Origin: Coriobacteriaceae bacterium
GTDB lineage: Bacteria; Actinomycetota; Coriobacteriia; Coriobacteriales; Coriobacteriaceae
Assembly: GCA_902399975.1 (NCBI GenBank)
Contig: CABOHA010000002.1
Coordinates: 124,001-188,000 of the forward strand
Direction of reading: 5' to 3'
Length of the DNA: 64,000 bases
Under the pieces are notes generated by a model. The model searched no databases and had not been told where the DNA came from. It was given only the letters and a program-made list of their open reading frames with translations. Below are positions 3,555 to 31,616 of this stretch, piece by piece (position 1 is the stretch's first letter; each line of letters starts with the position of its first letter). A program made the position numbers and the translations under genes.

Positions 3555-3621
3555 AGCGGTGACCACCAATGTTGAATAGCTGTCTTGAAAGACTGTGTAT
3601 TTATACTTGATTTAAGGCGGA

Positions 3622-13460: not shown

Positions 13461-15497
13461 ATGTCCATGACCGCACCTGCATCCAAGCTGCTCCAGCCCA
13501 TTACGGTTGGCCCCCTTGAGCTCAAAAACCGCATTATGTTCCCGCCGCTGACCACCGGCTACGAGGAGCGCGACGGTTCCATCGGCGAGCGCAGCCTGGC
13601 TTTTTACGAGCGCCTGGCCCGTGGCGGCGTGAGCTACATCGTCATCGGCGACGTTGCTCCCGTTATGACCGCAAGCCCCACGCCCAAGTTGGCGACCGAC
13701 ACCCAGATCCCCACGTTTAAGGCCCTGGCCGACGCTGTTCACAAGCACGGCGCCAAGGTCGCGCTGCAGCTGTTCCACCCCGAGTATGACGTGCCCGGCG
13801 TCGGCCGCATGGTCATGGGCTCCATGGCCGCTGCAAAAGCTGCGCAGGAGGCCAAGGCCGCCGGCGACGAGGAGACCTTTGCCGCCAAAATGGCCGAGTC
13901 CAACGAGATCCGCAAGCAGGCCTACGCCAAGCTGCACCACGACATGCAGCACTTTGTGAACGAGGCCACCGTGGAGCAACTCACCCAGATCAAGGAGGCC
14001 ATCGCCGCCTCGGCCGCCCGCGCACAGCAGGCTGGGATCGATGCCATCGAGGTCCACGGCGACCGCCTGGTGGGTTCGCTGTGCTCTGCCATCCTCAACA
14101 AGCGTACCGACGAGTACGGTGGCTCGTTCGAGAACCGCGTTCGCTATGCGCTCGAGGTCGTCGCCGCCATTAAGGAGGCCGCGCCGCAGCTGATGGTGGA
14201 GTACAAGCTCCCCGTGATCATGGAGAACCCCGACGGCACGCCGCGCGGCAAGGGCGGTCTGCAGCCCGACGAGGCCTGCGAGTTTGCCAAGCTGCTCGAG
14301 GGCGCGGGCATCGACATGATCCAGGTCGCGCAGGCCAACCACACCGGTAACATGGGCGACACCATTCCGCCCATGGGCGCCATGCCCTACAACTGGACGC
14401 TGCCCGTGGCCGAGCGCGTCAAGGCCCTGGTCTCTGTGCCGGTGGCAACCGTCGGCCGCGTTGTCTCGGTTGAGGCCGGCGAGAAGATCCTGGAGGACGG
14501 TTCGGCCGACATCGTCGCGTACGGCCGCTCGCTCATGTGCGACCCCGACATTGCGCTCAAGGCCGCCACGGGTGAGCCCATCCGCGAGTGCCTCAACTGC
14601 AACAAGGGTTGCGTCGATGCGATTCAAAACCGCCAGTACATCTCGTGCGTGCTCAATGCCGAGAACGGCGACGAGGCGACCATCGCTATTAAGCCGGGCG
14701 AGGGCGACAAGAAGATTGCCGTGGTGGGCGGCGGTATTGCCGGCCTGGAGGCCGCGCGCGTGGCGGCCAAGCGCGGCTACGACGTGACCGTCTACGAGGC
14801 GAGCGATCATCTGGGCGGTCAGATTGTGCTGGCGGCCGCGCCCCCGCGCAAGGACGAGATCATGCGCTCGGTCGAGTACTACGAGAAGATTCTGCCCGGC
14901 CTGGGCGTGAAGGTTGAGCTCAACCATGCCGCTAGCCCCGCGGACCTCAACGCCGCCGACGCTGCGATTGTGGCCGTGGGCGCGCACGACGTGGTCATCC
15001 CCGTTCCGGGTGCCGATTCGGACAAGGTCGTCTCGAGTTGGGACGTGCTGGCCGGCAAGGTGGAGCTTACGGGCCGCGTCGCCGTCATTGGCGGTGGCCT
15101 GGTGGGCACCGAGACTGCCGAGTACCTGCTGCAGCACGGCTGCGAGGTGGCGATCGTGGAGATGCTCGACAAGATTGCCGCGGGCGAGTCCGAGACCATT
15201 CTGCCACTGATCATGAGCGATTTTGCCGAGCACAACGTGGAGCAGCACGTGAAGACCCGCCTGACCGCCATTACCGACGAGGGCGTGGAGGCCATTCGCA
15301 CCACCGAGGACGGCGCCGAGGAGCCGGTGAAGATCGCCTGCGATTACGTGGTGATGGCCGTGGGCTCCAAGGCCAACGCGTTTGACCTGGACGGCGTGAC
15401 GGTGCCCGTGACCTGCGTGGGCGACTGCTCGGGCGAGCGTACCGCCGATATTGCGAGCGCCATTCGCACGGCGTATCACGCGGCCAACGAGCTCTAA
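13461..15497 (+). CDS. Old Yellow Enzyme-type flavin/4Fe-4S reductase
   Basis: The 678-residue enzyme has the layout of 2,4-dienoyl-CoA reductase and of the bile-acid reductases BaiCD/BaiH. Residues about 10-365 form an FMN TIM barrel (LKNRIMFPPLTTGY near the start). Cysteines 377, 380, 384 and 396 bind a [4Fe-4S] cluster. FAD and NAD(P)H domains follow, with VVGGGIAGLEAA near 420 and VIGGGLVGTETA near 541. It reduces an activated C=C bond; the substrate cannot be read from sequence. ATG 13461 follows AGAGAGG; ATG 13467 is a possible alternative. The gene stands alone with its own terminator. Confidence 0.9.
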   Translation: MSMTAPASKLLQPITVGPLELKNRIMFPPLTTGYEERDGSIGERSLAFYERLARGGVSYIVIGDVAPVMTASPTPKLATDTQIPTFKALADAVHKHGAKVALQLFHPEYDVPGVGRMVMGSMAAAKAAQEAKAAGDEETFAAKMAESNEIRKQAYAKLHHDMQHFVNEATVEQLTQIKEAIAASAARAQQAGIDAIEVHGDRLVGSLCSAILNKRTDEYGGSFENRVRYALEVVAAIKEAAPQLMVEYKLPVIMENPDGTPRGKGGLQPDEACEFAKLLEGAGIDMIQVAQANHTGNMGDTIPPMGAMPYNWTLPVAERVKALVSVPVATVGRVVSVEAGEKILEDGSADIVAYGRSLMCDPDIALKAATGEPIRECLNCNKGCVDAIQNRQYISCVLNAENGDEATIAIKPGEGDKKIAVVGGGIAGLEAARVAAKRGYDVTVYEASDHLGGQIVLAAAPPRKDEIMRSVEYYEKILPGLGVKVELNHAASPADLNAADAAIVAVGAHDVVIPVPGADSDKVVSSWDVLAGKVELTGRVAVIGGGLVGTETAEYLLQHGCEVAIVEMLDKIAAGESETILPLIMSDFAEHNVEQHVKTRLTAITDEGVEAIRTTEDGAEEPVKIACDYVVMAVGSKANAFDLDGVTVPVTCVGDCSGERTADIASAIRTAYHAANEL

Positions 15498-15523
15498 GCA
15501 AGAAAGCTATCGCGTATTGAGTG

Positions 15524-15559
15524 GGCGGGGAGTGCCGTATCGGTGCTCCCCGCCTTTTT
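15524..15559 (+). terminator. Intrinsic terminator
   Basis: GGCGGGGAG pairs with CTCCCCGCC and is followed by TTTTT, 27 bases after the reductase stop codon. Confidence 0.9.
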
Positions 15560-15590
15560 GCCAATAGAGTGTCCCTGATCAGCGGGTTCA

Positions 15591-15694
15591 GAAAATCCGA
15601 ATCTTGAGCACCCGAAAATCCGAATCCTTAGAACATGAAAATCCGAACTATGTGAACACGAAAATCCGAATCGCAACTACCCGAAAATCCGAAT
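15591..15694 (+). repeat. Five iteron-like repeats with exact 23-bp period
   Basis: GAAAATCCGAAT (third copy ends AC) begins at 15591, 15614, 15637, 15660 and 15683. The 11-base sequences between are not conserved. The array ends about 60 bases before the ATPase gene start. The exact period of about two helical turns points to a cooperative protein-binding site, possibly autoregulatory. Confidence 0.9.
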
Positions 15695-15753
15695 TTGCTA
15701 CAGTGGAATAGAAGAATCAGAAAGCAGGACCTGGAAATCTGCGGGGGTGGCTC

Positions 15754-17058
15754 ATGGCAGGTGAGAGGCTACATCGGGACGGATACATCCCACGTATCGT
15801 GGATGCGCAAATCGAGCGCTACCTTCACGTCTTTGGCGCGGTCGAGATTGCAGGCACCAAGTGGTGTGGCAAGACGTGGGCCGCGCTTGAGCATGGGGCG
15901 TCCGTCTCGTATGTCGACGAGAATCTCGACCTCGCGCGTGCCGACCCGGCGATGATGTTGCTGGGAGACCGTCCGCATATTATCGATGAGTGGCAGCGCG
16001 TTCCCCAAATTTGGGACTACGTTAGACACGAGGTTGACCGCACCCGGGGTGCGCGCGGCGCCTATATCCTCACGGGTTCCGCCACGCCTGCGTTTGGCTC
16101 AAAGGGGGAGGCGCCCGCGCATAGTGGAGCCGGCCGCATCGGCCGCGTCCGCATGCACCCCATGACGCTTGCCGAGACAGGCGAGTCCAACGGCAAGGTG
16201 AGCCTGGCGGGCTTGTTTGAGCATCGTTTTGAGCCCTGTCGGTGCAATGGCGATACACCGGGGCTTGTCGAAGCCGCTTGCCGCGGCGGCTGGCCCGAGG
16301 CGATCGATATGGTTTCGGCTGACGCCCAGCTCATCGCCCGCGAATATCTCAACACCACGTTTTCGAGCAGCTTTCCGGCGGTCGGTCTCGACCCCGATAT
16401 TGCTCGTCGAGTCTCTGCATCGATCGCGCGCAATCTGGGACAGGCAACCACGTATAAAACGATTCTTATGGATATGTTCGGTGCCGAGGAGGAGCCCGCA
16501 GCGTTTGCCGACGAGACCAAGGTGCGTAGGTACCTGGATGCCCTCAAAGGCATGTTCATTCTCGAGGAGGTCCCCGGTTGGGTTCCCGCCGCGCGCGACA
16601 AACGACGCTTTACCGTCAAGCCCAAGCGCTATCTGGCAGATCCGAGCCTTGCTTGCGCCTTGCTAGGTATGTCCTTGCAGGCGCTGCTTGCCGACTGGCA
16701 GACATTTGGTCTGGTGTTTGAGAATTTGGTCATACGCGACCTTTCGGTCTACGCACGTTCGCTCGACCTGCTGGATAGCACGCCCGTGCGCTATTATCGC
16801 GACGATTCGGGCCTTGAGTGCGATGCTATCGTGCAGCTAGCCGACGGACGGTGGGCCGCCTTTGAGATTAAGGTGAGTGAAGATAAAGCGAGCGCCGGCG
16901 TCGAGAGCCTCAAGCGCGTTCGCAAGAAGGTCTGTGGAAATCCTCGTTCACGCACACGCGAACCGGAGTTTATGGCCGTGATTGTGGGGGTGGGTGAGTA
17001 CGCCCGCGAGGTCGAGGACGGTATCTACGCGATACCCGTGCGCGCGTTGGGGTGTTAA
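15754..17058 (+). CDS. AAA ATPase with DUF4143-like C-terminus
   Basis: The 434-residue protein belongs to the large ATP-binding AAA_14/DUF4143 group. The P-loop GTKWCGKT is at residues 34-41, Walker B HIIDEW near 75-80, and LTGSATP matches the sensor motif. The C-terminal part contains GLECDAIVQLADGRWAAFEIKVSE, a PD-(D/E)XK-like nuclease core seen in this family. Its cellular role is unknown. It lies just downstream of the 23-bp repeat array, which is likely its control region. Confidence 0.85.
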   Translation: MAGERLHRDGYIPRIVDAQIERYLHVFGAVEIAGTKWCGKTWAALEHGASVSYVDENLDLARADPAMMLLGDRPHIIDEWQRVPQIWDYVRHEVDRTRGARGAYILTGSATPAFGSKGEAPAHSGAGRIGRVRMHPMTLAETGESNGKVSLAGLFEHRFEPCRCNGDTPGLVEAACRGGWPEAIDMVSADAQLIAREYLNTTFSSSFPAVGLDPDIARRVSASIARNLGQATTYKTILMDMFGAEEEPAAFADETKVRRYLDALKGMFILEEVPGWVPAARDKRRFTVKPKRYLADPSLACALLGMSLQALLADWQTFGLVFENLVIRDLSVYARSLDLLDSTPVRYYRDDSGLECDAIVQLADGRWAAFEIKVSEDKASAGVESLKRVRKKVCGNPRSRTREPEFMAVIVGVGEYAREVEDGIYAIPVRALGC

Positions 17059-17301
17059 GGGGCGGCACGCCGTGTGCCCGCTGCCCGGTGCTGCGGATTG
17101 GTGCAAGTGGTCAGGTTTGTTTGCACCATGTCCTTGGCATATGGAAGAAGCTGCTATTCGTAATCTTTAAGACATCATTAAGGCTTGCGCTGTGGAGCAA
17201 ACCGCAGGTCAATGCTATTCTTTTACCTTATCGTATGGTGTTGTATTCTGCCTGAATTCTATGCCTACGAGCAACGGATTGATCGCGACCAAGCGGAAAG
17301 G

Positions 17302-18393
17302 ATGGCACGCCCGCTAGCAGGGCAAACGCAAGCGATGAGTGGCATGGACCGACATAGCGAGCTCCGGCAGCACAAGACGGCGGCCGAGTACCGCCAAGCT
17401 GCCGACGAGCACGCGCGGACCCTCAAGGATTTCTGGAAGGATTTCCTGGTGAGCGGTCTGTTTGTGCTGGCCGCCATCGTTGCCATCTTTGCATGCCTGG
17501 CCTGGTTTGCCGCGAATAACCGAGTGAGTGCCACGGGGAGTACGATCGGGGCGAAGGGCCCACGGTTTGTGCTCTCGGGAACGCAGGGCGGCACGGCAGG
17601 TAAGTACGACGCCCAGGACAACTACGCGTCGGACAGTACAAGCCTTGCCGTGAACAATCTTTTCAACCTCAATAACATGAGTGCCGATGGCAGTCTTTCT
17701 CCGGGGTCGGCGGGCCAGCTTCAGCTCAACGTCAAGCCGCTCTGCAACGACCTGCACGATATTACGGTGGAGATGACCTGGGAGATTTCTGTCCAGACGA
17801 GCGTTGCGGGCACGGACGGCACTGCTACGGACGCATCGAAAAATGAAGAGATCATCAACTCGCTTAAAAATCTGGTGCGCGGCCATATCTTGGTTTTCCA
17901 GGGCAAAGACACCTCTGGCTTTTACTCCAATCCGCTGGTTCCCACGACAACCACGGTGACCCAGGACGGAGCGAGCGTCACCGTCATCACACAGAGCTTT
18001 ACCATTCCGGCGAAGAGCTTTCGTGCTGAGGGCTCAAACAATACGACCGAAACCGTCACCAAAACCCTCTACTGGATTTGGCCGGAGCAGTTCAAGAGCT
18101 ATGTTCGCACGGGCAACGCCGGCTACGGTGGCAACCTTTTCGCTAACACAGGCGACGAGGGGGGATACACGACCCTCGTCGGCGACATCAACAATAACCA
18201 CGCGTGCTATTTCCGCGCCGATAGCACGAGCGTGCCAGGTCAGGCGCCTAGCGCGGTTCCGCCTGTCGGAGCCGGCATGTCCTCTGCGGATGTGGAAACC
18301 TGCGCCAATTATTACAACAACGCCGACGAGATTATCGGCAAGAACGTCAAGTACATTCGCGTGCGCTTTACCGCCAAGGAGGCGGATAAATAA
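17302..18393 (+). CDS. Single-pass membrane protein with extracellular domain, surface operon gene 1
   Basis: Counted from 17302 the protein has about 45 cytoplasmic residues, a membrane helix (FLVSGLFVLAAIVAIFACLAWF) and about 290 external residues. The external part begins NNRVSATGSTIG and includes SLSPGSAGQLQLNVKP, which recalls TasA/camelysin-type beta-sandwich proteins. The start is uncertain: the frame is open back to 17185, but that extension lacks a ribosome site. ATG 17302 or 17335 gives the same topology as the two following proteins. The next ATG directly follows this stop codon, so the genes are co-translated. Confidence 0.75.
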   Translation: MARPLAGQTQAMSGMDRHSELRQHKTAAEYRQAADEHARTLKDFWKDFLVSGLFVLAAIVAIFACLAWFAANNRVSATGSTIGAKGPRFVLSGTQGGTAGKYDAQDNYASDSTSLAVNNLFNLNNMSADGSLSPGSAGQLQLNVKPLCNDLHDITVEMTWEISVQTSVAGTDGTATDASKNEEIINSLKNLVRGHILVFQGKDTSGFYSNPLVPTTTTVTQDGASVTVITQSFTIPAKSFRAEGSNNTTETVTKTLYWIWPEQFKSYVRTGNAGYGGNLFANTGDEGGYTTLVGDINNNHACYFRADSTSVPGQAPSAVPPVGAGMSSADVETCANYYNNADEIIGKNVKYIRVRFTAKEADK

Positions 18394-19233
18394 ATGGACG
18401 AGCAGCTTAATGCCCGCGAGCAGGGCGATATCAAACACAACGAAGGAGCGGCAAACCCCGGCGGCAACGGGTTCGGCTCGCACGGCGAAGCGCGTCCGGC
18501 TGGCCGCATCGAGCGTATCAAGGCTTGGGTGAGCGGCCACCGTCGCGAATCCCTTGCCATCATGGGCTTGCTTACCGTGCTTCTCGTGTTGCTGGGATTG
18601 ACGCTCGGATGGTTCGTCGATGCCAATCGCGGCTCCACCGTCGGCAAGATCAAGGAGCCGGCAGAGCTCAAAGTGCTGGGCCCCAACGCTACGGCAACAG
18701 AGCAGATCGACCTGAGCTACAACCCCGAATACGGCGATACCAAGACTGGCAACACGGTGACGCTCAAGCGCGCGTTTTGCGTGCAAACGGGCGGTGACGG
18801 TTTTGAGCTGCAACTCGCGAATACGACCAACATTACAGGTCTCACTATTGAGCTGTACAGAGCCGAGAACACGTCTGCGCTCCAGACGCCCGACGTGAGC
18901 GGTACCGCAGACGGCAAATCTTATAGCTGGAAAGCAACCGGAGAGAACCTGCTTACGAGCTTCGAATATATCAACAAGGAGAACGACGGTCTGGCAGCCG
19001 TGCCGGGCGAGGGCGCAAGCGACCCTACGTTCAAGGACTATCAAAACGTCCAGCGCAACGCGCGCCCGCTCTACCGATACAAGAAATTCGGCAAGAGCGA
19101 ACTCAACGCTAAGACGCTCGACGGCTCGACTGACAATGACACGCTCAACTTTATCATCAAGCTTTCGTGGGACGAGAGCGCCAAAGAGACCGATGTGATC
19201 TACCTGATCGCGCGCAACACGAGCGGTAAGTAG
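18394..19233 (+). CDS. Single-pass membrane protein, surface operon gene 2
   Basis: The 279-residue protein has a charged cytoplasmic head (1 to about 55), a membrane helix (IMGLLTVLLVLLGLTLGWFV) and an external domain beginning DANRGSTVGKIKEPAELKVL. A helix ending in WF, then a short polar stretch and a hydrophobic beta strand, resembles TasA-like fibre subunits, though no SipW-type peptidase gene is present. It follows gene 1 with no gap and precedes gene 3 by 14 bases. Likely an exported subunit or anchor of the surface assembly. Confidence 0.8.
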   Translation: MDEQLNAREQGDIKHNEGAANPGGNGFGSHGEARPAGRIERIKAWVSGHRRESLAIMGLLTVLLVLLGLTLGWFVDANRGSTVGKIKEPAELKVLGPNATATEQIDLSYNPEYGDTKTGNTVTLKRAFCVQTGGDGFELQLANTTNITGLTIELYRAENTSALQTPDVSGTADGKSYSWKATGENLLTSFEYINKENDGLAAVPGEGASDPTFKDYQNVQRNARPLYRYKKFGKSELNAKTLDGSTDNDTLNFIIKLSWDESAKETDVIYLIARNTSGK

Positions 19234-19247
19234 GAGAGGGGGCGCAC

Positions 19248-20192
19248 ATGGAGAAGCGAGAGAAGCAGCAGGATGCCGAGCGCGAGCAGCTGGCAAAAAG
19301 CAAGAGCCTAGCCAAGAATAAGCTGGTTGTGGCAGCAATCGCACTTGCTTGCGCCGTGGCGCTCGTGACGGGTGGTTACTTTACCTATTCCGCCTACACC
19401 GCCAACGGATTTCTAAAGTCCGTCGCCGCAACGGGCACCGCGCAGAGCCTGTTTGCGAGCGACCTGCTCACGGGCTATATGAGTGCGCCTGGCAACGACG
19501 AGCTCGACCGCGCCCAGCGCTCCGTTACGGTATATCCCAACAACAAGCAGTGCAGCTTCACCTTTAGCATCTATAACTATTTGCTGAGCAACAGCAACTT
19601 CTGCAACGATAAAAACGTGACGTATACCTTGACGGTCGAGGGGTATGGGCTCGATGGTGCCACGTGGAGCTATGCGCCCCAACCCGCCGGAAACGTCAAG
19701 CTTCCGGAGAATCAGCCTACCAAGAACGATTACACCGTGACCTTTCCTGAGGACAAGTTGGGACATGCCTACTTTGTGATTAAGGCCATGGTTGTTTCGA
19801 AGGAGAGCCCCGGCACCGAGCTCACCTGTCTGGCGGCGAAAGTCGTGCCGTCAAAGAAGGCCGAGGTCAAAACCGCTGCGGTTGAGGGCGCGCTGGTTGA
19901 TGAGGCTGGCAAGTTTGCTGATTACGCTGCGTACAACTACCGTGTGACGGTTACGGGCGCACCGGCAAACGTCACGCTCACGTGGGGGGAGAACGTGGAG
20001 ATCGATCCGTTCTTCGAGACCAACCATGGCGCGACGGTGGATGCTGCAGCTCGCAAGGCTACGTTCACCATGGAGCCGGGTTCGATGGTCGTCAACTTTT
20101 ACCGAGCGGACGGCAAAACGCCCGGTGGCTGGGGTGACCTGGGCATTAGCGTGAGCGGAACTACCCTGACGGGCACGACGGAGACTCAATAA
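19248..20192 (+). CDS. Single-pass membrane protein, surface operon gene 3
   Basis: The 314-residue protein has a highly charged N-terminus (MEKREKQQDAEREQL), a membrane helix (LVVAAIALACAVALVTGGYF) and a long external region with predicted beta strands and two cysteines near NKQCSF and FCND that could form a disulfide. It shares topology, but little sequence, with the two upstream proteins. AGGAG lies upstream of ATG 19248. It ends 40 bases before the giant protein gene, with no terminator between. Confidence 0.8.
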   Translation: MEKREKQQDAEREQLAKSKSLAKNKLVVAAIALACAVALVTGGYFTYSAYTANGFLKSVAATGTAQSLFASDLLTGYMSAPGNDELDRAQRSVTVYPNNKQCSFTFSIYNYLLSNSNFCNDKNVTYTLTVEGYGLDGATWSYAPQPAGNVKLPENQPTKNDYTVTFPEDKLGHAYFVIKAMVVSKESPGTELTCLAAKVVPSKKAEVKTAAVEGALVDEAGKFADYAAYNYRVTVTGAPANVTLTWGENVEIDPFFETNHGATVDAAARKATFTMEPGSMVVNFYRADGKTPGGWGDLGISVSGTTLTGTTETQ

Positions 20193-20232
20193 CTCTGGAA
20201 GCGGAGTTTTTAGGATAAGAGGTACGGAATCG

Positions 20233-23200
20233 ATGAGAACGGCAAAGCGCATACTCGCAGAGTTCATGACGGTGGTCATGGTGCTCCAAGCATGCTCGCC
20301 CACGGTGGTTGCTGTGGCGGCAGGCTGGCAGAACATCTCGAACGAGATTGCTGCCGCATCTGCGAAGGCGTTGGATACTGCCGAGGGCGGCGAGACCAAC
20401 GGCGATGTCACGATCGGGTCTGGGTCGAGTGATACCGGTGCCGACAGCGACAGTGCTGGGGATGACGCGGCGAAGGATGACGCTGCAGCAGGCGATACCA
20501 CCGATAGCGCCATGGGTTCCGATTCCACGGGCGACCAGACGGAAGGCGACGATGCCGCTGACGATGCCGCCGCTGACGACGCCGAGCAAGATGCCGATGA
20601 TGCGACTTCGGAGGACGCTGAGGCCCAGGCGGGTGCGACGATCACGGATTTGAAAAAGCTTGTCGAGCTGCTCAAGGCTAATGGTGCGGAAAACATCGTG
20701 CTCAAAGAAGATAACAGTGGAATCAAAAGCCTCAATGTCAAGTCGTCGGAGGCGTTCGCCGCCCTGTCTAACGCCGACGCTTCGCTTTACTATGATGCGC
20801 AGATCAAGGTTATCATCACGGGCGATGCGAAGCTCACCGAGTCGGCTAATAACGGCATGTCTTTCCAGGGCTTTGGCAGCGATGAGCATCCGTTTGAAGG
20901 CAGGATCTATAGGTCGCTGAATGGCGCTGATAGTCCCGTCGAGCTCACGACTGATCGGACGGTTTTTAATAGCCTCAAGCTGACCGACCAAAACAATATG
21001 GTCAAGATGAAGTGGGTGGGCGCGACTAGCTATAGCGCGCCGATGGTCGCTTCGAAGGTCAGCGGTGCGGAAAACAGCGAAGAGAGTAAGACGCTTAACG
21101 CGTCGGTTGACATCGCGGGTCCCGTTGATAAGAAGGATGATACGACTTCCGTCTTGACGGCACCCCTCCTGGGTGAGACGACGGGCTATCTTGCTGCGAA
21201 AGTTACCTATAGCTTCACCGGTTCCCACAAGATTCTCAAGGTGAATGCGACGGGCAACATTGGCTTGATTGGTAACACGGTCGAAAGCGGGGCCTTGACG
21301 GTTGAGTCCGTCACGTTCCCCAACGATCTGGCCTCAGGCGGAACCGTCGAAACGAGCTCTGACAACGCTGGGCTGCTCGTAGGCGAAGTCAAGGACGGTG
21401 CGACCCTGAGCGTCGGCACCCTGACCAATGTTCCCGCCGCCACCGTCCAGTCCACGAGCGGCTTTGCCGGTGGCGTTGTAGGCCTCGTTGGCTCGAGTGC
21501 AGGTGCCATGGTCAACGTCACGGAGGCTCTCGACCTACACGCGCTCACCGTCAAGGGCACCACCGCCAGCGGCGGTTTTATCGGCAAGGCAGCCAACCTC
21601 ACGCTTACCGTGGGTACGGATAACAGCGGAAAAGACGCCTCGGGCAATGCCATCACCATCAAGCCTGCACGCGCGGTTGGGTCATCATCGGCCGGCACGT
21701 ATGCAGGTGGCCTTATCGGCGACGCCTCGTTTGCCGGCAAGTTCACCATCAATGGCGACATCTTCGACTTTGGCGAGGGCGTGGATCTCAGCGTATCCAA
21801 CACGAGCGTCGCTCCTTCTGCCGGCGGACTGTTCGGCGAGCTCGACATCTCGAACGGCGATGTGACCGTCAGCGGCGGATCGTATACAAGTACGTTGCAA
21901 AACGGAACGGACAACAACAATAGCGTGCGCGGCAACTACGGCGGCTTGGTGGGCAAGCTGTGGGGCAGGAAGGATGGCGAGGCACTGCGTGCGTTCACGG
22001 TGCAGGATGGCGCCGCGGTGTCGTTTGGCGTGGGCTCCAACGGCAAGCTCACCTATGCGGGCGGCCTGGTAGGCTACCTTGGCGAAGGCAACGGGAGTCC
22101 CAACGAGTCTGCCGTGGTCATTGATGACGCAACGGTGACATGTGCAACATCGGGCTACGCCAGCAATAGTGGCAAGTATGGCGGTGCCGTGGGCGTCGTG
22201 GACACAAAAAACGTTCTAGAAGTGCGCGGCCTAAAGGTCGAAACCGCCGGCAACGCCACCATCGGCGGCTCGAACGGCGGCTTTGCCGGAGTCGTCGGAT
22301 CGTCGTGGCGCGGCATCGTTAAGTTCAGCGGTGTCACCGATCTGTCGGACGCCAGATTCGCGGAAAACGACCACACCGCGCAGCTAGTCTATGAGAACTT
22401 CAACTCACTCATTTTTGCCGCGGGTAGCGGAAGCGACGGCGGTGCCACCGCAGGCGATATCACAAAATGGCAATACAAGCGCCCCACCACTCAGGTCAAG
22501 ATTGATGACATCTACAGCTATGGTCAGGTCATTCGCCTGGGCAGTGGGCTGAGCAATGATCTCATCACCATCAACGATTCGCACCAGTGTATCTTTAAAT
22601 CGAACCTCGTAAAAACTGGTGGCGCCTTTGTGCTGGCAGGCGTCGACGATTTCGCAAAGCTGGCGATCACCTGGCAAACGAGCGGGTACTTCTCCGCCGT
22701 GGAGGACGTTGCGGATGACAATTTCGCTCAGATTCCTTCGACGAACATCACGCTCTCTGCAGACATCAACCTTTCCGGCACAGGTCTTACCGGCCTTACC
22801 AAAGACCGACAGCCCAAAGAGCAAGCCGGCGTTAACGAGAACAACCACAGCTTTACCGCCACGCTCAACGGCAACGGTCACACCATAAGTCTGGCGGTGG
22901 GCGAGCCTTACGGCATGCGCGGCAATAGCGAGGTCAGTGCCACCAGTGATGGCAACGGCAAAATCTATCGCCACGGCCGCCTGGGCTTGTTCGCAGCAAT
23001 CAACGGCGCAACTGTCTCCGACGTCACAATCGCCGGCTCTATGAAGTTCGATAACGGCGCGGCCATTGATGCCGGATCGCTTGCGGGCACCATTGCGGGC
23101 GGTCTGACGCTGTCTGGCGCAACGTGCAAAACGAATATCGCGTGCGATGATACGTTCGCTAACGATGTGAACATTAACGATGTGAACATTGGTGGTATTG

Positions 23201-26200
23201 CGGGCAGCGTGTCGACAGCTTCCACGGTTACGTTTGGGGGCAGCAGCAAGGCTCAAGCGACCATCGCTGCAACTAAAACGCTTAACGGCAATATTCGCAT
23301 TGGCGGCGCCATCGGCTATGTGGGCGATTATGCCTCGACATTCAATGTTACGGGTCTCGAAGCCGGCGGCAAAATCGAAACCGGCAATTGCGCCAGCGGC
23401 AAGATTGCCCAAGTTGGTGGCCTTATCGGCTGCATCGCACAGGGTAAACAAGAAAACGTGACAAACAAGACCAATGTGGCGACCGTCAACATCGCAGGGT
23501 TGGTGTTCGATTCGTTCGCCATGAGCGTCGGCAAAAACGGCGATAAGCTCAATGGCGCGGGCGGTCTCTTGGGTTATAGCTGGGGCAACGCGGTCGTAAC
23601 TATCGGAGATAACAGCGTTAACAAGGATGTAAACTCCTATGCTCTGAGAACAACCAAGGCCTCAATAACTGCGGAGAATTCCAAGGAGCTCGGCGGTCTT
23701 GTATACGCCGCTAGTGGCCACTGGGTCATCAACGACTATGCCATCGACCTTTCGGGTGCAACCATTAACGCGAGCAACGCCGAGATGTTGGGCTTGCTCG
23801 TCGGCCGTGGCAGCAGGGTAGCCGACGGAATATACGGTTCCGAGCCGTATGCGGGATTATATCTAGAAGATAAGGCTTATTGGGGTACTGCCTATAGGGT
23901 CGAAGGCATTCATGTTGCGGAAGCTAAGTCCATAAAGAAGTTTGATGAATGGGTTGGCGACGGCAGGAAGCCAGGCAGCAAGCTAATCGATGCCGAATGG
24001 AACACTGTCGTTTCACTTCACACCAAAGACGACGTTAATAATGGCAAGCTCGACATGAGCGGAAATCCGGGAAGCGATAACAGCTATCACAATCGAACGG
24101 ATTTCGGCAACTCACGCAAAACCAACGCTTGGACGAGGTATTACTACAATCTTGACAAGGCGTATACGGTAGTAGGCAGCAACTCAAAAAATAGTAGTGC
24201 GAGCAGCTGGATGGACCGCCCGGAGTACTTGTTGCTTTGGTGTGCATGCCTGTATGCCCCGCCTGCAATTCAGGGCTATATCATTCCGGGAAATCGTGAG
24301 ATTTTCAAAGGAAACAATATTGGTACGAACGGTTCCGAGGGCGTGGCTATCAACCTAGAGGGATACAGCTTCTACCCCACCAACCCCACCAGTAATTCCA
24401 CGGTAACGGTAAAAAACGCAACCATTACGTTCCATTATTCCGATATTAAAGCTGAGCAAGAAGGCAATAAAAAGAATAACGAAGCCACGCAGCACGAGAA
24501 TATGCACTGCGCTCTCATCCGAACTCACACGGGCGATCTTAAGGTTGAGAATGTCACGCTTGCTGGTACCGTGGGCTCTGTTGTGAGCGATTGGGGAAGC
24601 TCGTCTGGCGCGCTTGTGTGTCGCTATATCTACGGACCCGTCAAAAAAACCAATGTGGCACAAATCACGATAAACGGTTTAGTGCTCGATGGTCTTGCGG
24701 TCGATGGTGTGACGAACGCCACCCAATACGCTCCACTGCTAATCAACCAGATGCAGACCCTTGTAAACCTTGATGCGAAGAATATCTCGGTAACCGATTC
24801 GTACAATAACGGTACGAAAAAAAAGATTGCAGCTACAAGCTTGTTTGGCGAGCTCGGCGTGGGAGATAAGGCCAATCAGGTCATAGCGAAGTTTGAGAAA
24901 ATAAGCTTGCCCAGCCAAACGGACAATTCGATTTTTACCCACGCGAGCCTGCTGGAGAGCTTTGGCTACGCGACCGGCGGCACGGGCTCGGCGGACTATA
25001 CCTTTACAGCAGATGCCGCTCAAAATGACAAGGTGACCTACGGATCCGAAATTGATAGGAAAGGCACGGAGTACTCCGGCAAGCAGCTTTGGTATTACGA
25101 TGAAGCGACGTATGGCACCCCTAACGGCTTGGTGAAGGCTGGGGATAAGACGGCGAATGTCGATGCCCCGGTGTTCGGTGACTATCTTCCTTATGTTTAT
25201 AAGGGGAAGGCCACCGAGAGCAATGTCCAGTACCACGAAATAAAAGTCAACCAGCGTATTCCAAAGCTGATAACGGGATGTGGTACATATGGCGATCCGT
25301 ATACCGTTAAGGACGCGACGGAGATGAACGCCATCGCCAACTACATCAACAATAGCGTGGCATTGGATGGCTGGGAAGTCACCATTGCCGCTGACCAGAG
25401 TGCGCTTTGCACTCGCCGCAGCGACCAATCGACCAACAATGAGGTTACGTACGTCTATAAGCAGGCAAACGGTACTGATAAAAAATGGGAGAGGAAGATC
25501 GGCGATAAGACCGATCCCGAGCAGACGCTGAGCGACGAAACCGTGCGCCGCTATATACAGAGTGCGTATTACAGCATAGAGCCTGACAAAGATAGTAAGA
25601 TTACCGTCGATGCGGCATCGTTTGGCGGGTTTGGCAACAAGGCCAATCCGTTCCGCGGTGTTATCGTTGGCGATCTGGGCGCCTCGACTGCAACAATTGA
25701 GATTGAAAACAACAAGGGCGAGCTTCGCGGCCTGGTTCCCTATAGCTATGGCAGCGTGGTACGCAACCTCAACATCAATTATGTGAACGAGTCGGCGGCG
25801 ATTACTTATTCTGCCAAGGACGCCGACGGTGCCCCAACGGCGTTCTTTGGTGGCGTTATCGGCTGCATCCTTGGTGGCGATAACATTATCGATGGCGTGG
25901 TCGTAAATGGGGCGACGGCCGATAACCCCACAACTGGCTTTACGGTTACTGGTGGCGGAACTAAGTCACATCTTGTTCCCGTCGGCGGTTACGTTGGTGC
26001 CATTGCGGGCGGCGGTGTGATCTTCCGCAATATGTCAGGGACGTCTTGGCGCGCTGGAACCAGCGACAAGTCTCAGGGGCTTGGAACGGGCAACTTCCGG
26101 CAGTACGACAATCCCTACGTTGGCCGTGTGATTGATGGCTATGCCTTTAGCGAGGGCTGCAAAGTCGAAAACGGTAACGCTAGCTACAAGATCAACGAGC

Positions 26201-29200
26201 TCACAAACAAGGGAACCGCCTGCGTCACTACCACGGGCACCGACAACAAGTATATCGGCACTGATGCCGAGGCACCCGTGACCACGGTGGAAAACGCCCA
26301 GGGCCTTTTGGTGCTCTCGGCCATCATTAGCTCGGGTGCGGGTGCTGGAGCGGCACATACCGACTACGCTAATTATGGCGTGTTCCGCGGCTCCAAGGCG
26401 TACTGGGGCAGCGATAAGCAGGACCCGGCGATAAACGGCTACCTGTTTGGCAACAAGGAATATGGTAAGGTGCGAAATGCCAGCTACGACTGCGTGGGCA
26501 AGCCTGCGAGCGCTGCCGGCGATTTCGAAACCGCCAAAAACGATGACCAGAAGGCCCCGGGCAAACAGGGGTGGCACGGCCCGCTCGACCATGATGACGA
26601 TGTAAATTCGCCCTACCTGGTGGCGTCCTACGCTGCCGACTACCAAACGGGCTACGTGTGCGCGTCGAAATCTATCGGCATGAGCCTGGAGTTCAAGGAA
26701 AATGCCACCTACGATATGACCGGCTACGGCACGGGATACGTGGGCCTTAGCGGCCGTTACTATTCCAATGCTTGCAGCTCGAACGAGGCGTCCACCGATC
26801 GCGACCGCATCACGCCGCACGTGGCAACGATCGACGGCAACGGGGCCACCATCACGGTAGGCGCCAAAGATGCCACTTACGGCGTCGTCGAATATGCCGA
26901 TGACGACTATAAGGTCTCGGGCGTGGGCGGCCTATTCAGCACCGTGATGTTCACCTCAACCAATGTGGGGCAGAGCGTCACCGCGAATGACGGCGCTCAG
27001 GTCAAAGACCTTACCTTTAGTAACTGCAACGTATCGCTCACGTACAAAGACGCCAACGGTAGCATTGCCTCGGGACCGGCATCGAACGACCTCATCGGCA
27101 CCGGCCTATTGGCGGGCGCAACGGCCAACTACGACGGCAACACGCGTGGCGTCTACCGCAACGTACAGATGAAGAACTGCACCGTGTTGGGCGCAAAGAG
27201 CGTAGGAGGGCTTCTTGGCAGCTCGGGCCGTACCAGCCGAAGGACGGATAACGACGTGACCTATATGGTCAATTTCGGCTCCGGCACGCAGGCGCCCGCG
27301 AATCTCTATGACTGCTCATACACTGGCCTTAGCGTCACGGGCGAGAAGTACGTTGGCGGCTATGTGGGTGCGATCGCCTCGCCGTGCAGCGTGTGGACAA
27401 CCGCGGCCACGGGGGTATACGAGAAGACTATTGGCAAAAACTCGACCATAACCGCCACGGGAACAACACCCTACGTGGGCGGCGTGTTCGGTTATACCTC
27501 CAGTAACGTATCGGTGAACACCAAAATTGGCATCACGGAAGCCGTCGCATCGAGCACGGCAGTCATCTCTGGGGTAAATGTACTCGCCACCGGGTCGAAC
27601 ACCGATAAGTACATGGGCGCCGGCGGTGTGGTCGGAAGCGCCTATAGAGGCGTTATTTCTATAAGCAACGTGCGCATTGATGCCGGAGGCGATGCCAAGA
27701 GCGCCATCATCGGCGATGCCACCGGAACGAACAATAGCATCCGTAATGCGGGCGGCTTGATTGGCGAGGTCACGAGCAGTGGCAGCCCCAACACGTACTG
27801 GTTTGAGGACTGTAGCGTCGAGAATATCAACATTGCCGGCACCGACCAATGCTCGGGCGGACTTATCGGCTACTACTTCAGCAATGTGAACATAGCCTGC
27901 AACAATATCGCGATTGAGTGCGCCACGATCAAGGGCAGGTGGAGCGGCGGTCTACTTGGCGCGATTAACAGCGGTGCCGACGTCATCAACGTCACCAACA
28001 CAAAGGTATCTAACACAACGTTTGGCGGAACCTCCAACGGCGGCATTGCGGGCGACGGACGCGGCCAGTTCCATCTGGTAAACGTGCTCATGGACAGCAA
28101 TACCTACAAATTGGGCTCTAAGCAGGGCGTGCTCTTAGGCGAGGTTGACACAAACGGCTATAGCCTCTCCGCAGCGGGCGTGAACGTAAAGCTCGGCAAC
28201 GGCAAGACCACGCGTGATCTGCCGCCGATGGTTTACACGACCAATACGGCCGCCGTAAACAGGAAGACCTACATCGCGTTCGGCGACTATAAGGACACGC
28301 TGCGCGCGCCCGACGAGGGCACCACGCTCTACGGTGCGGACGATACCGCTACCACGGCGGCAAGCCCGTACGTGACCACGAGCCCCGTAAGCACGCTGGC
28401 GGTGCGTGCCTCCGACAACGACACCACCGATCGCTACCTGTTTGGCGACGGCGCCACCATCGACACCGCGGCGACCGTCCAGAGCGAGGCAGGCACCGGT
28501 GTTGCCGATCGCTACACCTACACGAATATCGGCGGCATTAATGACAACGGCGCCTATCAAAATAAGTCGAGCTACGATGCCTCATCCGTGGCCAGTAAGT
28601 TCAATTCGAATAATGATACAAGCAGCAACCAAGCCACAACGGATTTCTCCGTTTTGGTGATCTCTGGCAACGACAACACGACGGTCAAGAGCTATCTAAA
28701 CATCGTCACGAACGGCGGCTTCTCCGATGCCTGCAGATTGAATAACGAGAATGGCACCAATCCGCACGTGACGGCCAAAGCAGAGGTTTTCCAACTCAAG
28801 GACGGTGTGTTCGTTAAGGACGATGACGCGTCGAACAATCCCACGCTTCGCGTGGTGAACAACGGCAAGAACAACATGTCGTTTAGCCCAAGCTCCGATT
28901 GGGATAACGGCAAGGGTCGCTTTACGCTCCTGACCGTCACCTTTACCGAGGCGGGTCAGAGCTACAACGTTCAGGTGCCGATCATCGTTAAGCGCAAGCT
29001 CGAGATCGATTTCACTGCAACGTATGATTACGGCACTAAGTTTAAAGAAAGCGACTACGCTAACCTTGGAAAAGATGCACACGTGCTTACGAGCTTTGGC
29101 GAGCCGATGACGGGTCTGCTTACCTGGACATACAATTCTGCCAATGGGAAGGAAGTCGACTTTGGCTGGGACAGCTATATGGCTGCTGGCGGCTCGATGA

Positions 29201-30966
29201 AGGGGCTCGGTAAGAGCATCCTCTTCAATGGTGCCGACGGAAGGTTGCCCCAGGGCAGCCAGCTTGCGCTCATCGATGCGAACGTTGACGGCCGGGCCGG
29301 TGGCAGAGAGTATCACTATACGGTGGGCGAAGGCGGAGCAACGAGCGTTTCCCTGAGCGGAAACGACGGCTTTAAGGATTCTGCGGGCAATCCATATCAG
29401 GAGCGATGGCTGAGCGAGATTTTGGATGTGTCGGCCACACAGGATGGCGCCGGCACATGGACCGTGTGTGATAACGAGGCAGAGGCGACCGCTAAAGCGA
29501 AACTCGATGGCAAGTGGACGCTGTTTAAGGTTGCGGGTGCTGACGTTCCCAGCAACAGTCGCTATACGCTAGAGGTGCCTAAGGATAACGGCAAGGAGCA
29601 GCGTGCGTCGGAGAGCGTCTACCTAGTTGTCAACGTGCCCAAGTCGGGCGACGGCGTGACGCAAGCTAATATCAACGGTTTTACGGCTTCGTCTATTGAC
29701 TCGAATTCTTCGGGTGCCCGCATATCTTGGAATCTGCATCATGTTTTACGCACCGATGGCAGCGACGATATTCAAAACAGTACGGCATCGACATACAGTA
29801 TCTTGTCCAATTATGAGCAGAATGTAGTCGACAAAAAAGATGGGGCGTGCATTCCGGTTTCGAAGTCGGAGGACGGTGCCGCCTACGTTCTTTCTCTCGA
29901 TGTCATGGATACGGTTACGTTTAGCCCGAGCCAATACTATACAGAGAGCGACCATCTGTTCTATCAGCTCGATACATCGCTGTGTCGCTATGGCGCCAAC
30001 AACAACCTAATGGGAGTAAGCAGTTTCCCGAGCGGAACTTCGGCGATTGCGAAGTTCTATGTTGCCATCGGCAATCAGAACTACAGGTGGAATGGCAGCG
30101 ATTGGGAGCCGTATGACGCTTCGACGCCTGCGTTTACACAGATTGTGACGGATACGGGTGATGACTCACTGAGGCTCACGCTCGACCATGACCTTGCCGG
30201 AATCCGCAAGCGTGCAGCGGGCGGATCCTTTACCGTGCGTACGGTAGTGGAAGAGATTCGCCTTACGCCGGACGGCTGCAACAAGGTTATCTCCCTGTCC
30301 AAGCAGTCTGGCGAGGACGCCTGTACCAAGATGTCCTATACCGCCAAGCTTTCGACGCGCGATTCTGGTCTTGCCACCTCGAGCCTGGCGATGACGAAGC
30401 GCGGCAACGTTGGATACTATCGCATGGACACGGGTGATACGACCATTACGCTATCGGCGCCTGAGAAGTCGCAGCTTGGCATTAACGTGGACGACCTGCG
30501 TCCGATCGCGAATGGCACGATTGGTCTGGGTGCCACGTATGAACTGGGTGGACTCAGCAACGCCGCCGAGGCAATTGCGAACGCAGACTCTGTTGTGTAC
30601 ACGCTCGCGCTTCAGCGCCGCGGAACCGACGGCACGTATGAGAGCGTAACGGATGATATCTCCAACTACGTAACAGTGACGGAGAGTAAGCTTGCCGCGG
30701 TCGCTCCCTCCGGTAGCACGATCACCTTCACTGACTCGAAGGAGAACGGCAAGTTCAAAACGAAGAACGGTAATACGACGTTTAGCCTGCCCTTTACCGT
30801 TAAGGTCAACACGCAGGTTGAACAGCGTGAGCAGTTCTACGCGAACTATCGTCTGGTGATGACAGCGAGCTTGGTCAAGGGTGACGTGGCGAGCGCAAAG
30901 CCTCAATCGCCCGACTATGTGACCTACACGCTCACGAGGGTGAACCTCAACGGCATCGACCACTAG
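20233..30966 (+). CDS. Giant 3577-residue secreted GLUG-repeat surface protein
   Basis: The protein starts with a basic segment and a hydrophobic signal sequence containing VLQAC (a possible but atypical lipobox) and then AVAAG, a possible signal-peptidase I site. Residues about 55-130 are an Asp/Ala/Ser-rich acidic linker. Residues about 300-2700 carry scattered GLUG-type motifs such as GGLVGYLG, GGLIGCIAQ, GGLLGYSW, GGVVGSAY and GGLIGEVT, expected to form a long beta-solenoid. The last 900 residues are non-repetitive beta-rich domains. The C-terminus (TLTRVNLNGIDH) lacks LPXTG and a membrane helix, so anchoring is unexplained. An adhesin role is likely by family. Codon use is noticeably more AT-rich around 23,600-25,500, suggesting mosaic origin. 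Confidence 0.85.
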   Translation: MRTAKRILAEFMTVVMVLQACSPTVVAVAAGWQNISNEIAAASAKALDTAEGGETNGDVTIGSGSSDTGADSDSAGDDAAKDDAAAGDTTDSAMGSDSTGDQTEGDDAADDAAADDAEQDADDATSEDAEAQAGATITDLKKLVELLKANGAENIVLKEDNSGIKSLNVKSSEAFAALSNADASLYYDAQIKVIITGDAKLTESANNGMSFQGFGSDEHPFEGRIYRSLNGADSPVELTTDRTVFNSLKLTDQNNMVKMKWVGATSYSAPMVASKVSGAENSEESKTLNASVDIAGPVDKKDDTTSVLTAPLLGETTGYLAAKVTYSFTGSHKILKVNATGNIGLIGNTVESGALTVESVTFPNDLASGGTVETSSDNAGLLVGEVKDGATLSVGTLTNVPAATVQSTSGFAGGVVGLVGSSAGAMVNVTEALDLHALTVKGTTASGGFIGKAANLTLTVGTDNSGKDASGNAITIKPARAVGSSSAGTYAGGLIGDASFAGKFTINGDIFDFGEGVDLSVSNTSVAPSAGGLFGELDISNGDVTVSGGSYTSTLQNGTDNNNSVRGNYGGLVGKLWGRKDGEALRAFTVQDGAAVSFGVGSNGKLTYAGGLVGYLGEGNGSPNESAVVIDDATVTCATSGYASNSGKYGGAVGVVDTKNVLEVRGLKVETAGNATIGGSNGGFAGVVGSSWRGIVKFSGVTDLSDARFAENDHTAQLVYENFNSLIFAAGSGSDGGATAGDITKWQYKRPTTQVKIDDIYSYGQVIRLGSGLSNDLITINDSHQCIFKSNLVKTGGAFVLAGVDDFAKLAITWQTSGYFSAVEDVADDNFAQIPSTNITLSADINLSGTGLTGLTKDRQPKEQAGVNENNHSFTATLNGNGHTISLAVGEPYGMRGNSEVSATSDGNGKIYRHGRLGLFAAINGATVSDVTIAGSMKFDNGAAIDAGSLAGTIAGGLTLSGATCKTNIACDDTFANDVNINDVNIGGIAGSVSTASTVTFGGSSKAQATIAATKTLNGNIRIGGAIGYVGDYASTFNVTGLEAGGKIETGNCASGKIAQVGGLIGCIAQGKQENVTNKTNVATVNIAGLVFDSFAMSVGKNGDKLNGAGGLLGYSWGNAVVTIGDNSVNKDVNSYALRTTKASITAENSKELGGLVYAASGHWVINDYAIDLSGATINASNAEMLGLLVGRGSRVADGIYGSEPYAGLYLEDKAYWGTAYRVEGIHVAEAKSIKKFDEWVGDGRKPGSKLIDAEWNTVVSLHTKDDVNNGKLDMSGNPGSDNSYHNRTDFGNSRKTNAWTRYYYNLDKAYTVVGSNSKNSSASSWMDRPEYLLLWCACLYAPPAIQGYIIPGNREIFKGNNIGTNGSEGVAINLEGYSFYPTNPTSNSTVTVKNATITFHYSDIKAEQEGNKKNNEATQHENMHCALIRTHTGDLKVENVTLAGTVGSVVSDWGSSSGALVCRYIYGPVKKTNVAQITINGLVLDGLAVDGVTNATQYAPLLINQMQTLVNLDAKNISVTDSYNNGTKKKIAATSLFGELGVGDKANQVIAKFEKISLPSQTDNSIFTHASLLESFGYATGGTGSADYTFTADAAQNDKVTYGSEIDRKGTEYSGKQLWYYDEATYGTPNGLVKAGDKTANVDAPVFGDYLPYVYKGKATESNVQYHEIKVNQRIPKLITGCGTYGDPYTVKDATEMNAIANYINNSVALDGWEVTIAADQSALCTRRSDQSTNNEVTYVYKQANGTDKKWERKIGDKTDPEQTLSDETVRRYIQSAYYSIEPDKDSKITVDAASFGGFGNKANPFRGVIVGDLGASTATIEIENNKGELRGLVPYSYGSVVRNLNINYVNESAAITYSAKDADGAPTAFFGGVIGCILGGDNIIDGVVVNGATADNPTTGFTVTGGGTKSHLVPVGGYVGAIAGGGVIFRNMSGTSWRAGTSDKSQGLGTGNFRQYDNPYVGRVIDGYAFSEGCKVENGNASYKINELTNKGTACVTTTGTDNKYIGTDAEAPVTTVENAQGLLVLSAIISSGAGAGAAHTDYANYGVFRGSKAYWGSDKQDPAINGYLFGNKEYGKVRNASYDCVGKPASAAGDFETAKNDDQKAPGKQGWHGPLDHDDDVNSPYLVASYAADYQTGYVCASKSIGMSLEFKENATYDMTGYGTGYVGLSGRYYSNACSSNEASTDRDRITPHVATIDGNGATITVGAKDATYGVVEYADDDYKVSGVGGLFSTVMFTSTNVGQSVTANDGAQVKDLTFSNCNVSLTYKDANGSIASGPASNDLIGTGLLAGATANYDGNTRGVYRNVQMKNCTVLGAKSVGGLLGSSGRTSRRTDNDVTYMVNFGSGTQAPANLYDCSYTGLSVTGEKYVGGYVGAIASPCSVWTTAATGVYEKTIGKNSTITATGTTPYVGGVFGYTSSNVSVNTKIGITEAVASSTAVISGVNVLATGSNTDKYMGAGGVVGSAYRGVISISNVRIDAGGDAKSAIIGDATGTNNSIRNAGGLIGEVTSSGSPNTYWFEDCSVENINIAGTDQCSGGLIGYYFSNVNIACNNIAIECATIKGRWSGGLLGAINSGADVINVTNTKVSNTTFGGTSNGGIAGDGRGQFHLVNVLMDSNTYKLGSKQGVLLGEVDTNGYSLSAAGVNVKLGNGKTTRDLPPMVYTTNTAAVNRKTYIAFGDYKDTLRAPDEGTTLYGADDTATTAASPYVTTSPVSTLAVRASDNDTTDRYLFGDGATIDTAATVQSEAGTGVADRYTYTNIGGINDNGAYQNKSSYDASSVASKFNSNNDTSSNQATTDFSVLVISGNDNTTVKSYLNIVTNGGFSDACRLNNENGTNPHVTAKAEVFQLKDGVFVKDDDASNNPTLRVVNNGKNNMSFSPSSDWDNGKGRFTLLTVTFTEAGQSYNVQVPIIVKRKLEIDFTATYDYGTKFKESDYANLGKDAHVLTSFGEPMTGLLTWTYNSANGKEVDFGWDSYMAAGGSMKGLGKSILFNGADGRLPQGSQLALIDANVDGRAGGREYHYTVGEGGATSVSLSGNDGFKDSAGNPYQERWLSEILDVSATQDGAGTWTVCDNEAEATAKAKLDGKWTLFKVAGADVPSNSRYTLEVPKDNGKEQRASESVYLVVNVPKSGDGVTQANINGFTASSIDSNSSGARISWNLHHVLRTDGSDDIQNSTASTYSILSNYEQNVVDKKDGACIPVSKSEDGAAYVLSLDVMDTVTFSPSQYYTESDHLFYQLDTSLCRYGANNNLMGVSSFPSGTSAIAKFYVAIGNQNYRWNGSDWEPYDASTPAFTQIVTDTGDDSLRLTLDHDLAGIRKRAAGGSFTVRTVVEEIRLTPDGCNKVISLSKQSGEDACTKMSYTAKLSTRDSGLATSSLAMTKRGNVGYYRMDTGDTTITLSAPEKSQLGINVDDLRPIANGTIGLGATYELGGLSNAAEAIANADSVVYTLALQRRGTDGTYESVTDDISNYVTVTESKLAAVAPSGSTITFTDSKENGKFKTKNGNTTFSLPFTVKVNTQVEQREQFYANYRLVMTASLVKGDVASAKPQSPDYVTYTLTRVNLNGIDH

Positions 30967-30988
30967 TTCCGAAGCCAACTGGCTTCGC

Positions 30989-31024
30989 AAAGGGGGCGGC
31001 AACCACCCGGTTGCCGCCCCCTTT
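30989..31024 (+). terminator. Terminator of the surface operon
   Basis: A perfect 16-bp stem (arm AAAGGGGGCGGCAACC) around ACCC begins 22 bases after the giant gene. The arm itself ends in CTTT; a smaller CGAAGCC hairpin lies just before it. Confidence 0.85.
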
Positions 31025-31055
31025 CTAGTCTGCGCGATCCCAGTCTTGGACTCCG

Positions 31056-31260
31056 CTGGACAGTTAGTTCAGATACGTATAATTCCAGACCGCAGCAGGC
31101 GCATCCGGCGCTCGTTTTGGGGAAGAAAGGGGCTCAAAACTAGGATTCGGTAGCTATCTGGGCTCGATTTGCGTGCAATGAGTCGCCAAAGAACCCTCTC
31201 CGGGGACCATAGCGCAGCTTTATCAGCATAGAAAAATACGTATCTGAACTAACTGTCCAG
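31056..31260. mobile_element. MITE-like element, 205 bp with 25-bp terminal inverted repeats
   Basis: The ends begin CTGGACAGTTAGTTCAGA and are perfect inverted copies over 25 bases (31056-31080 and 31236-31260). The interior has no gene. CCG stands immediately outside both ends and could be a 3-bp target duplication. No related transposase is in the window. Confidence 0.75.
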
Positions 31261-31301
31261 CCGCCGTTGGAGAAAGGTGTTTTAGCTCTCCCGACCCCTC
31301 C

Positions 31302-31410
31302 ACCAGGCTTTCCAACTTCCCACTTAACTTAACACTTAAGGTGGAAAGCTGGGTAGAAAGCTGGAAAGTTAAGTGGAAAGCTGGAATGTTAAGTGGAAAG
31401 CTGGAAAGTA
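31302..31410. repeat. Short tandem and inverted repeats
   Basis: GTGGAAAGCTGG occurs at 31341, 31373 and 31393, with a related TAGAAAGCTGG at 31354; the last two copies are 20 bases apart. The left side (31302-31330) holds a degenerate inverted copy. The reading frames across it are repeat-derived, and the rest of the gap up to 31,680 shows no gene. Confidence 0.8.
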
Positions 31411-31616
31411 CGCGGAAGACTGACATGCTAGCCCAGAGGCTAGAGGGGTTAATAATTATGAAGACCATACCAAGCGAAACAAAAAGATACCAATCTGGTT
31501 GGTAAAACACGCTCAATGAGCTGCGAGCTAACTAGCTGCGTAAATTAAATGTAAAGAACTGTCGCAAATAAATGGCAAATGCCCAGATAACGCCGCGTCT
31601 ATTTTAATTAACTGCT

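Follow-up and report, generated by a model that had tools for sequence, protein, structure and literature searches.

The window analysed here is a stretch of 64,000 nt from a Coriobacteriaceae bacterium, in which four open reading frames on the forward strand, designated P1, P2, P3 and the giant, follow one another with intergenic gaps of 0, 14 and 40 bases (Table 1). This gene set, its order and its gaps had been put forward in a sequence-only reading of the same DNA, and all three were confirmed from the open reading frames. The operon had also been taken to begin at position 17302, where P1 would be 363 aa long; the four genes are present, but a P1 start at 17335 is likelier because the upstream start is not conserved, with an in-frame stop between the positions equivalent to 17302 and 17335 in two related loci (L013 and L014). 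Both in the window and in four related loci, P3 lies immediately 5' of the giant. The segment 30967-31040, which contains the hairpin that follows the giant, has a folding energy of -45.2 kcal/mol (z -7.3). A pattern scan for promoters and terminators returned sites no commoner than in shuffled sequence and did not list this hairpin, Rfam gave zero matches between 15500 and 33000, and a search upstream of P1 for an invertible promoter yielded a single imperfect inverted pair (76%).

Table 1. Features of the operon and its surroundings, in window coordinates.
Feature	Coordinates	Strand	Remarks
Accessory island, 15.9 kb	15497-31442		Absent from 5 non-carrier Collinsella loci
AAA_14/DUF4143 ATPase gene, next to the operon in the island	15754-17058	+	DUF4143 4.7e-27, AAA_14 5.4e-9 (Pfam)
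P1	17335-18393	+	352 aa; predicted cytoplasmic head, single membrane segment, external domain
P1 hydrophobic segment, residues 37-55	17443-17499	+	AWFAANN motif follows
P2	18394-19233	+	279 aa; head, membrane segment 54-72, predicted beta-rich ectodomain (model)
P3	19248-20192	+	314 aa; head, membrane segment 26-44, ectodomain with predicted terminal Ig-like domain
Giant, predicted secreted protein	20233-30966	+	3577 aa
Giant residues 413-686, GLUG-like motifs ~32-45 aa apart	21469-22290	+	Motif count
Giant residues 2325-2576, second GLUG-like motif block	27205-27960	+	Motif count
Giant C-terminal region, residues 2871-3577	28843-30963	+	Part 3001-3577 tracks P1-P3 type
Hairpin, 16-bp stem, likely transcription terminator	30989-31024	+	Directly 3' of the giant

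The distribution of the four genes was followed in 65 genomes of the family and 396 genomes of the class. P2 was found in 3 of the 65 family genomes (G001, G036 and G038), the same three in which the N-terminal 90 residues of P1 matched strongly (4/65 at E≤0.01). Across the class P1 matched in five genomes, P3 in seven and the C-terminal region of the giant in six, and for each of them the full-length matches fell in the same four carriers, namely G001, G036, G038 and G312; the two partial matches to the giant C-terminal region sit inside 4.8-kaa giants of G224 and G308. Additional short matches to the P1 membrane segment occurred in three of the four carriers. The order P1-P2-P3-giant is kept in all four, including G312, a two-contig genome from another family in the same order, whose P1, P2, P3 and giant C-terminus are 45-47% identical to those of the window (42.6% over the giant). 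The small genes are thus found next to a giant in every carrier, as had been anticipated, and neither orphan small genes nor an orphan giant were seen among the 396 class genomes (P1, P3 and giant C-terminus) or the 65 family genomes (P2), a small sample; the opposite outcome, small genes frequently occurring apart from the giant, did not emerge in either set. The four genes represent a unit that is conserved and, it seems, obligate. A separate contig scan recovered three loci, identical to those of G001, G036 and G038, and the nearest compared genome to the window was G001, with 22% shared 31-letter words.

P1, P2 and P3 each possess a charged N-terminal head, one hydrophobic segment above threshold and a further 200-300 residues, a layout from the hydrophobicity scan that is consistent with the common topology claimed for them (head, one helix, outer domain). 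Neither Pfam nor NCBIfam placed P1, P2, P3 or the giant in a credible family, and P1-P3 had no match to TasA, camelysin or SipW-cognate models (Pfam at E≤1, NCBIfam at E≤10), the SipW-cognate model TIGR04088 being silent even at E≤10. Membership of P1-P3 in the TasA, camelysin, BsaA or SipW-cognate families is therefore unsupported. Homology of P1, P2 and P3 to one another was likewise rejected (hhalign probabilities 10.9, 0.2 and 0.6), as was homology of P3 to the giant C-terminus (probability 1.1). Predicted structures of P2 (mean pLDDT 64, with block means of 74-90 across residues 101-190) and P3 resembled generic folds when compared with the PDB (Foldseek, VIA), and TasA was unnamed among the best 50 rows of each list, which does not count against a TasA fold; a match of P2 to a PDB sequence named 'Hdf' (E 0.0099) was judged chance-like. 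The membrane segment and linker of P1 resemble small TYAWY-type proteins (hhalign probability 92, E 7e-7), which in G038 are encoded in a cluster with two SipW-type peptidase genes coming after it. Of the description 'TasA-like', then, what stands is the resemblance of the P1 membrane segment to proteins of SipW clusters, whereas the family models lend it no support and the matches of the P2 and P3 structure models are generic. The residues that precede the aromatic motifs of P1-P3 (A-WF, G-WF and A-YT) would presumably suit cleavage, by analogy with TasA.

The giant begins with a signal-like hydrophobic segment at residues 11-29, the strongest in the protein, and five weaker internal segments (1.45-1.50) also exceed the same hydrophobicity threshold. 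An LPxTG motif and a C-terminal membrane segment are both absent. Counterpart giants measure 3556, 3554 and 3569 aa, and that of G312 measures 3609-3639 aa depending on the start. In GLUG repeats a GG-[hydrophobic]-x-G motif recurs at fairly even intervals, and motifs of the type GG[LFVA]xG are indeed enriched in the giant, numbering 18 against a mean of 0.9 and a maximum of 4 in 200 shuffles. To this extent the term 'GLUG-repeat' is apt, but the family model does not endorse it: at E≤1 the window's giant had no match to Pfam GLUG (PF07581), and related giants, at 17.0, 15.3 and 12.6 bits, stayed below the cut-off of 20.5. The motifs lie mostly within residues 413-686 and 2325-2576, with in-block spacings mostly of 30-48, and for this reason a solenoid running through all 3577 residues, as had been envisaged, is at most putative.

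No enzymatic or effector domain was recognised in the window's giant (Pfam and NCBIfam) or in two related giants (Pfam), and the variable part of the protein, described below, is internal. Both observations speak against a contact-dependent or enzymatic device, in which the operon would present, at the tip of a stalk, an effector or a glycan lyase instead of building a structural layer. A secreted protein of this size, part of which varies and which is encoded on an accessory island, is what such a device might look like, yet we consider it very improbable.

The island itself was delimited by comparison with relatives that lack the operon. Its downstream flank was searched for in ten such relatives, six of which matched, and in all five of those compared (L061-L065) window positions 15496 and 31443 lie ~198 bp apart, which is why we regard the intervening DNA as accessory. 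Among its five annotated genes there is no recombinase, and the longest direct repeat flanking it is a 9-mer. A 434-aa counterpart of the AAA_14/DUF4143 gene is present upstream of P1 in L012, L013 and L014; the gene is a neighbour of the operon in the island, and any role in it would be putative. By eye, ATPase genes of AAA_14/DUF4143 appearance adjoin surface clusters in L044, L015, L016 and L052 as well. The gene is preceded by a direct-repeat array (15591-15705) of about five units at 23-bp spacing, each consisting of GAAAATCCGAAT plus 11 nt, an arrangement resembling iterons or an operator array. A second, tandem array (31338-31421) of GGAAAGC-type units with a 20-bp period is located 3' of the giant, and related repeats occur in L012, L013 and L014. 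In G038 an additional gene of ~499 aa (L014, 1189-2688) separates the giant from the downstream flank.

Outside the operon the window is mostly ~95% identical to G036 and G038 (~89% just downstream), and this level of identity is lost at 17557, where the conserved head, membrane segment and linker of P1 end. The conservation of the P1 head and membrane segment is not merely a recombination boundary, because it extends to G312, in which head residues 14-36 are 78% and membrane residues 37-58 are 77% identical to the window, versus 42% for the ectodomain; outside the close allele the heads of P2 and P3 are only 12-38% identical. To describe variation within the giant, the four giants were compared over 36 segments, each 100 residues long, and a grouping was accepted at a margin of 0.1. 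Nineteen segments grouped the window with G001 versus G036 with G038, seven grouped the window with G036, three grouped it with G038, and seven were without grouping. At the two ends of the protein (residues 1-400 and 3001-3577) all 10 segments matched the grouping of P1-P3, and the 26 segments of the middle were divided 9, 7 and 3 among these groupings, with 7 ungrouped. The giant, as judged from these four loci, is a mosaic whose middle is shuffled between alleles and whose ends both follow the P1-P3 type. This pattern fits co-adapted ends and an exchangeable middle, a fit that four loci cannot separate from chance linkage, G036 and G038 resembling each other at either end of the operon. At least 120 further giants among the matches listed were all 100% identical to the window over residues 1601-2000 (2 of 120 are 2094-aa fragments); since they had been ranked on the giant middle, they are uninformative on type linkage.

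Inheritance of the island as a block could also account for the linkage, if the giant were secreted as an adhesin or matrix protein in its own right and P1-P3 were small matrix proteins that had only a promoter in common with it and made no physical contact. The four Collinsella genes do occupy one island at one site, where simple co-inheritance would be possible, and the type match of the giant ends might be a remnant of linkage. We nevertheless hold this account to be improbable: the gene order is kept across a family boundary in G312 at the sequence divergence given above, and the mosaic middle implies recombination between the two ends that have stayed matched.

Four SipW queries compared with the window by tblastn gave no SipW, in a search that was reasonably sensitive because the queries match one another at 27-34% identity. 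Sortase was also lacking from the window when searched by tblastn with three true sortases of relatives (L029-L031, VTLVTC motif; best E 4.3). The reported absence of SipW and sortase thus holds for the window, and the giant has no LPxTG, but what had been concluded from it is at most partly supported, for all four carrier genomes encode SipW-type peptidases and the family carriers G001, G036 and G038 encode sortases elsewhere. The SipW model TIGR02228 exceeded its cut-off in 10 of the 65 family genomes (57 gave some match, mostly below cut-off), which comprised 3/3 carriers and 7/62 non-carriers (Fisher p 0.0027, uncorrected for kinship), and G312 possesses two SipW-type peptidases over the same cut-off.

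This co-occurrence within the family bears on a second alternative, in which P1-P3 would stay uncleaved as a static membrane docking platform that catches the giant termini during or after export, with no fibre formed and SipW irrelevant. The strong conservation of the P1 head and membrane segment relative to its ectodomain would point to a lasting membrane role of this kind, and P1-P3 match no SipW-cognate model and have no SipW beside them in the window. Set against this are the enrichment of SipW among carriers, the likeness of the P1 membrane segment and linker to proteins of SipW clusters, and the poor conservation of the P2 and P3 heads, and on balance we rate a docking platform as unlikely, if still a serious contender.

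The reading that we favour, tentatively and at somewhat less than an even chance, is that the operon gives rise to a single surface structure in which P1-P3, cleaved in trans by SipW and independent of sortase, hold the variable giant by its ends. P1-P3 would insert via their single membrane segments, and a SipW-type signal peptidase encoded elsewhere would cut them just outside the membrane; P1 may remain as a base, given that no part of it is better conserved than the cytoplasmic head and the membrane helix. We infer that the three would then come together, much as TasA or BsaA do and with no sortase involved, to form a base or short fibre. The giant would be exported by its own signal peptide and, being without a recognised anchor, would be held through its type-matched ends, so that the swappable middle would face outward, where it might bind glycans, host or neighbours, or vary the surface with regard to phage or immunity.

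Consistent with this SipW-type reading are the retained order and gene sizes, the joint occurrence of the genes, the anchorless giant, the P1-TYAWY similarity, the distribution of SipW (3/3 versus 7/62), the grouping of the giant ends (10/10), and the pairing of SipW, small proteins and a 4.8-kaa giant in G224 and G308, which belong to the family of G312. Arguing against it are the missing TIGR04088 match, the mutual dissimilarity of P1-P3, the generic folds, none named TasA, among the best 50 rows of each PDB comparison, the presence of SipW in seven non-carriers, which makes it unspecific to the operon, and a type linkage seen in four loci, of which two resemble each other at either end, that plain linkage could explain. 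A more specific 'grip and cargo' version, in which SipW-processed beta proteins would hold the 3.6-kaa giant by co-adapted ends while its middle is freely exchanged between strains, is rather doubtful in our estimation. The idea of an apparatus dedicated to one giant nonetheless retains the support of the conserved four-gene unit and of the type-linked giant ends (four loci), though its TasA-like and GLUG labels are supported in part at most, and the four genes probably build one swappable surface structure. If true, a common gut genus would possess an apparatus that is dedicated to one giant surface protein and varies between strains, and that would offer a test case for sortase-free holding of giant proteins on monoderm cells; its matched ends and shuffled middle lead to specific, testable predictions.

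Precedents for the individual steps are described in three papers. TasA fibres form by donor-strand assembly (PMC9674648), Bacillus cereus CapP, TasA and CalY make up a tripartite sortase-independent fibre system (PMC13082335), and in the sipW-bsaABCRSD operon of Clostridium perfringens a SipW-dependent secreted protein polymerises without sortase, with more putative extracellular proteins encoded alongside (PMC7395162). TasA donor-strand assembly and SipW-dependent BsaA polymers make the favoured mechanism plausible. In common with SipW-TapA/TasA of Bacillus subtilis and TasA/CalY/CapP of B. cereus, the window operon encodes several small signal-bearing surface proteins that may be processed by SipW, here in trans, and the sortase-independent assembly that we propose is a feature of the known TasA systems. 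Unlike them it has no SipW of its own, shows no match by sequence or family model, and carries a 3.6-kaa giant as its fourth gene. SipW-dependent BsaA likewise serves as a comparison, although P1-P3 do not match the BsaA model TIGR04090 and the accessible text on sipW-bsaABCRSD mentions no giant protein (PMC7395162); a small protein of another Collinsella cluster gave a weak TIGR04090 match (18.4 bits against a cut-off of 60). Sortase-assembled pili and MSCRAMM-type adhesins are further comparisons; from sortase-dependent pili the operon differs in that its giant is devoid of LPxTG and the window of sortase.

Closer to home, clusters in G224, G308 and G007 resemble the window operon in that a small, N-terminally hydrophobic protein directly precedes a very large gene (encoding 4758, 4858 and 1831 aa, respectively), but unlike it they carry their own SipW, and that of G308 an LPQTG protein. 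Homology of the window's giant to these three large proteins was rejected (no BLASTP match at 1e-3). The giants of G224 and G308 show partial C-terminal profile similarity to that of the window, and P3 aligned with the proteins preceding them at a probability of 50 over 54 columns only, which is a hint. No operon of this composition in Collinsella or Coriobacteriia was found in the literature among the matches listed (titles and abstract openings), a weak absence, and no paper was found that links GLUG to Coriobacteriia or the GLUG motif to SipW. The claim that no described system has this make-up is in line with those matches as far as the four-gene composition goes, but it has to be qualified, since SipW with small proteins and a very large protein recurs in the class and SipW systems of the TasA and BsaA kind are known. 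From sequence comparison, the window operon looks like a SipW-less relative of this recurring theme, and is best described as a variant form of SipW-type surface assembly that has a giant as its cargo, its function being putative.

Several other surface gene clusters were noted in the sampled genomes. Clusters of small signal-anchored proteins of the TYAWY/TYAWF type occur in G038 (L015, 9405-19903; L019, 211-5700) and G312 (L045, 3811-4821; L060), accompanied both in G038 and in L060 by two SipW-type genes; among the proteins of this type that were tested, one gave a weak SipW-cognate match and the others had no credible family. In G224 (L052/L053) and G308 (L054/L055) two SipW-type genes accompany small proteins and the giants, each giant coming directly after a small protein whose N-terminus contains a hydrophobic segment. 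Finally, the non-carrier G007 (L059, 4523-13377) possesses in a row a SipW, a SipW-cognate protein (29.8 bits against a cut-off of 19), a weakly BsaA-like protein and the 1831-aa protein, together with a protein that has a sorting-signal-like end.
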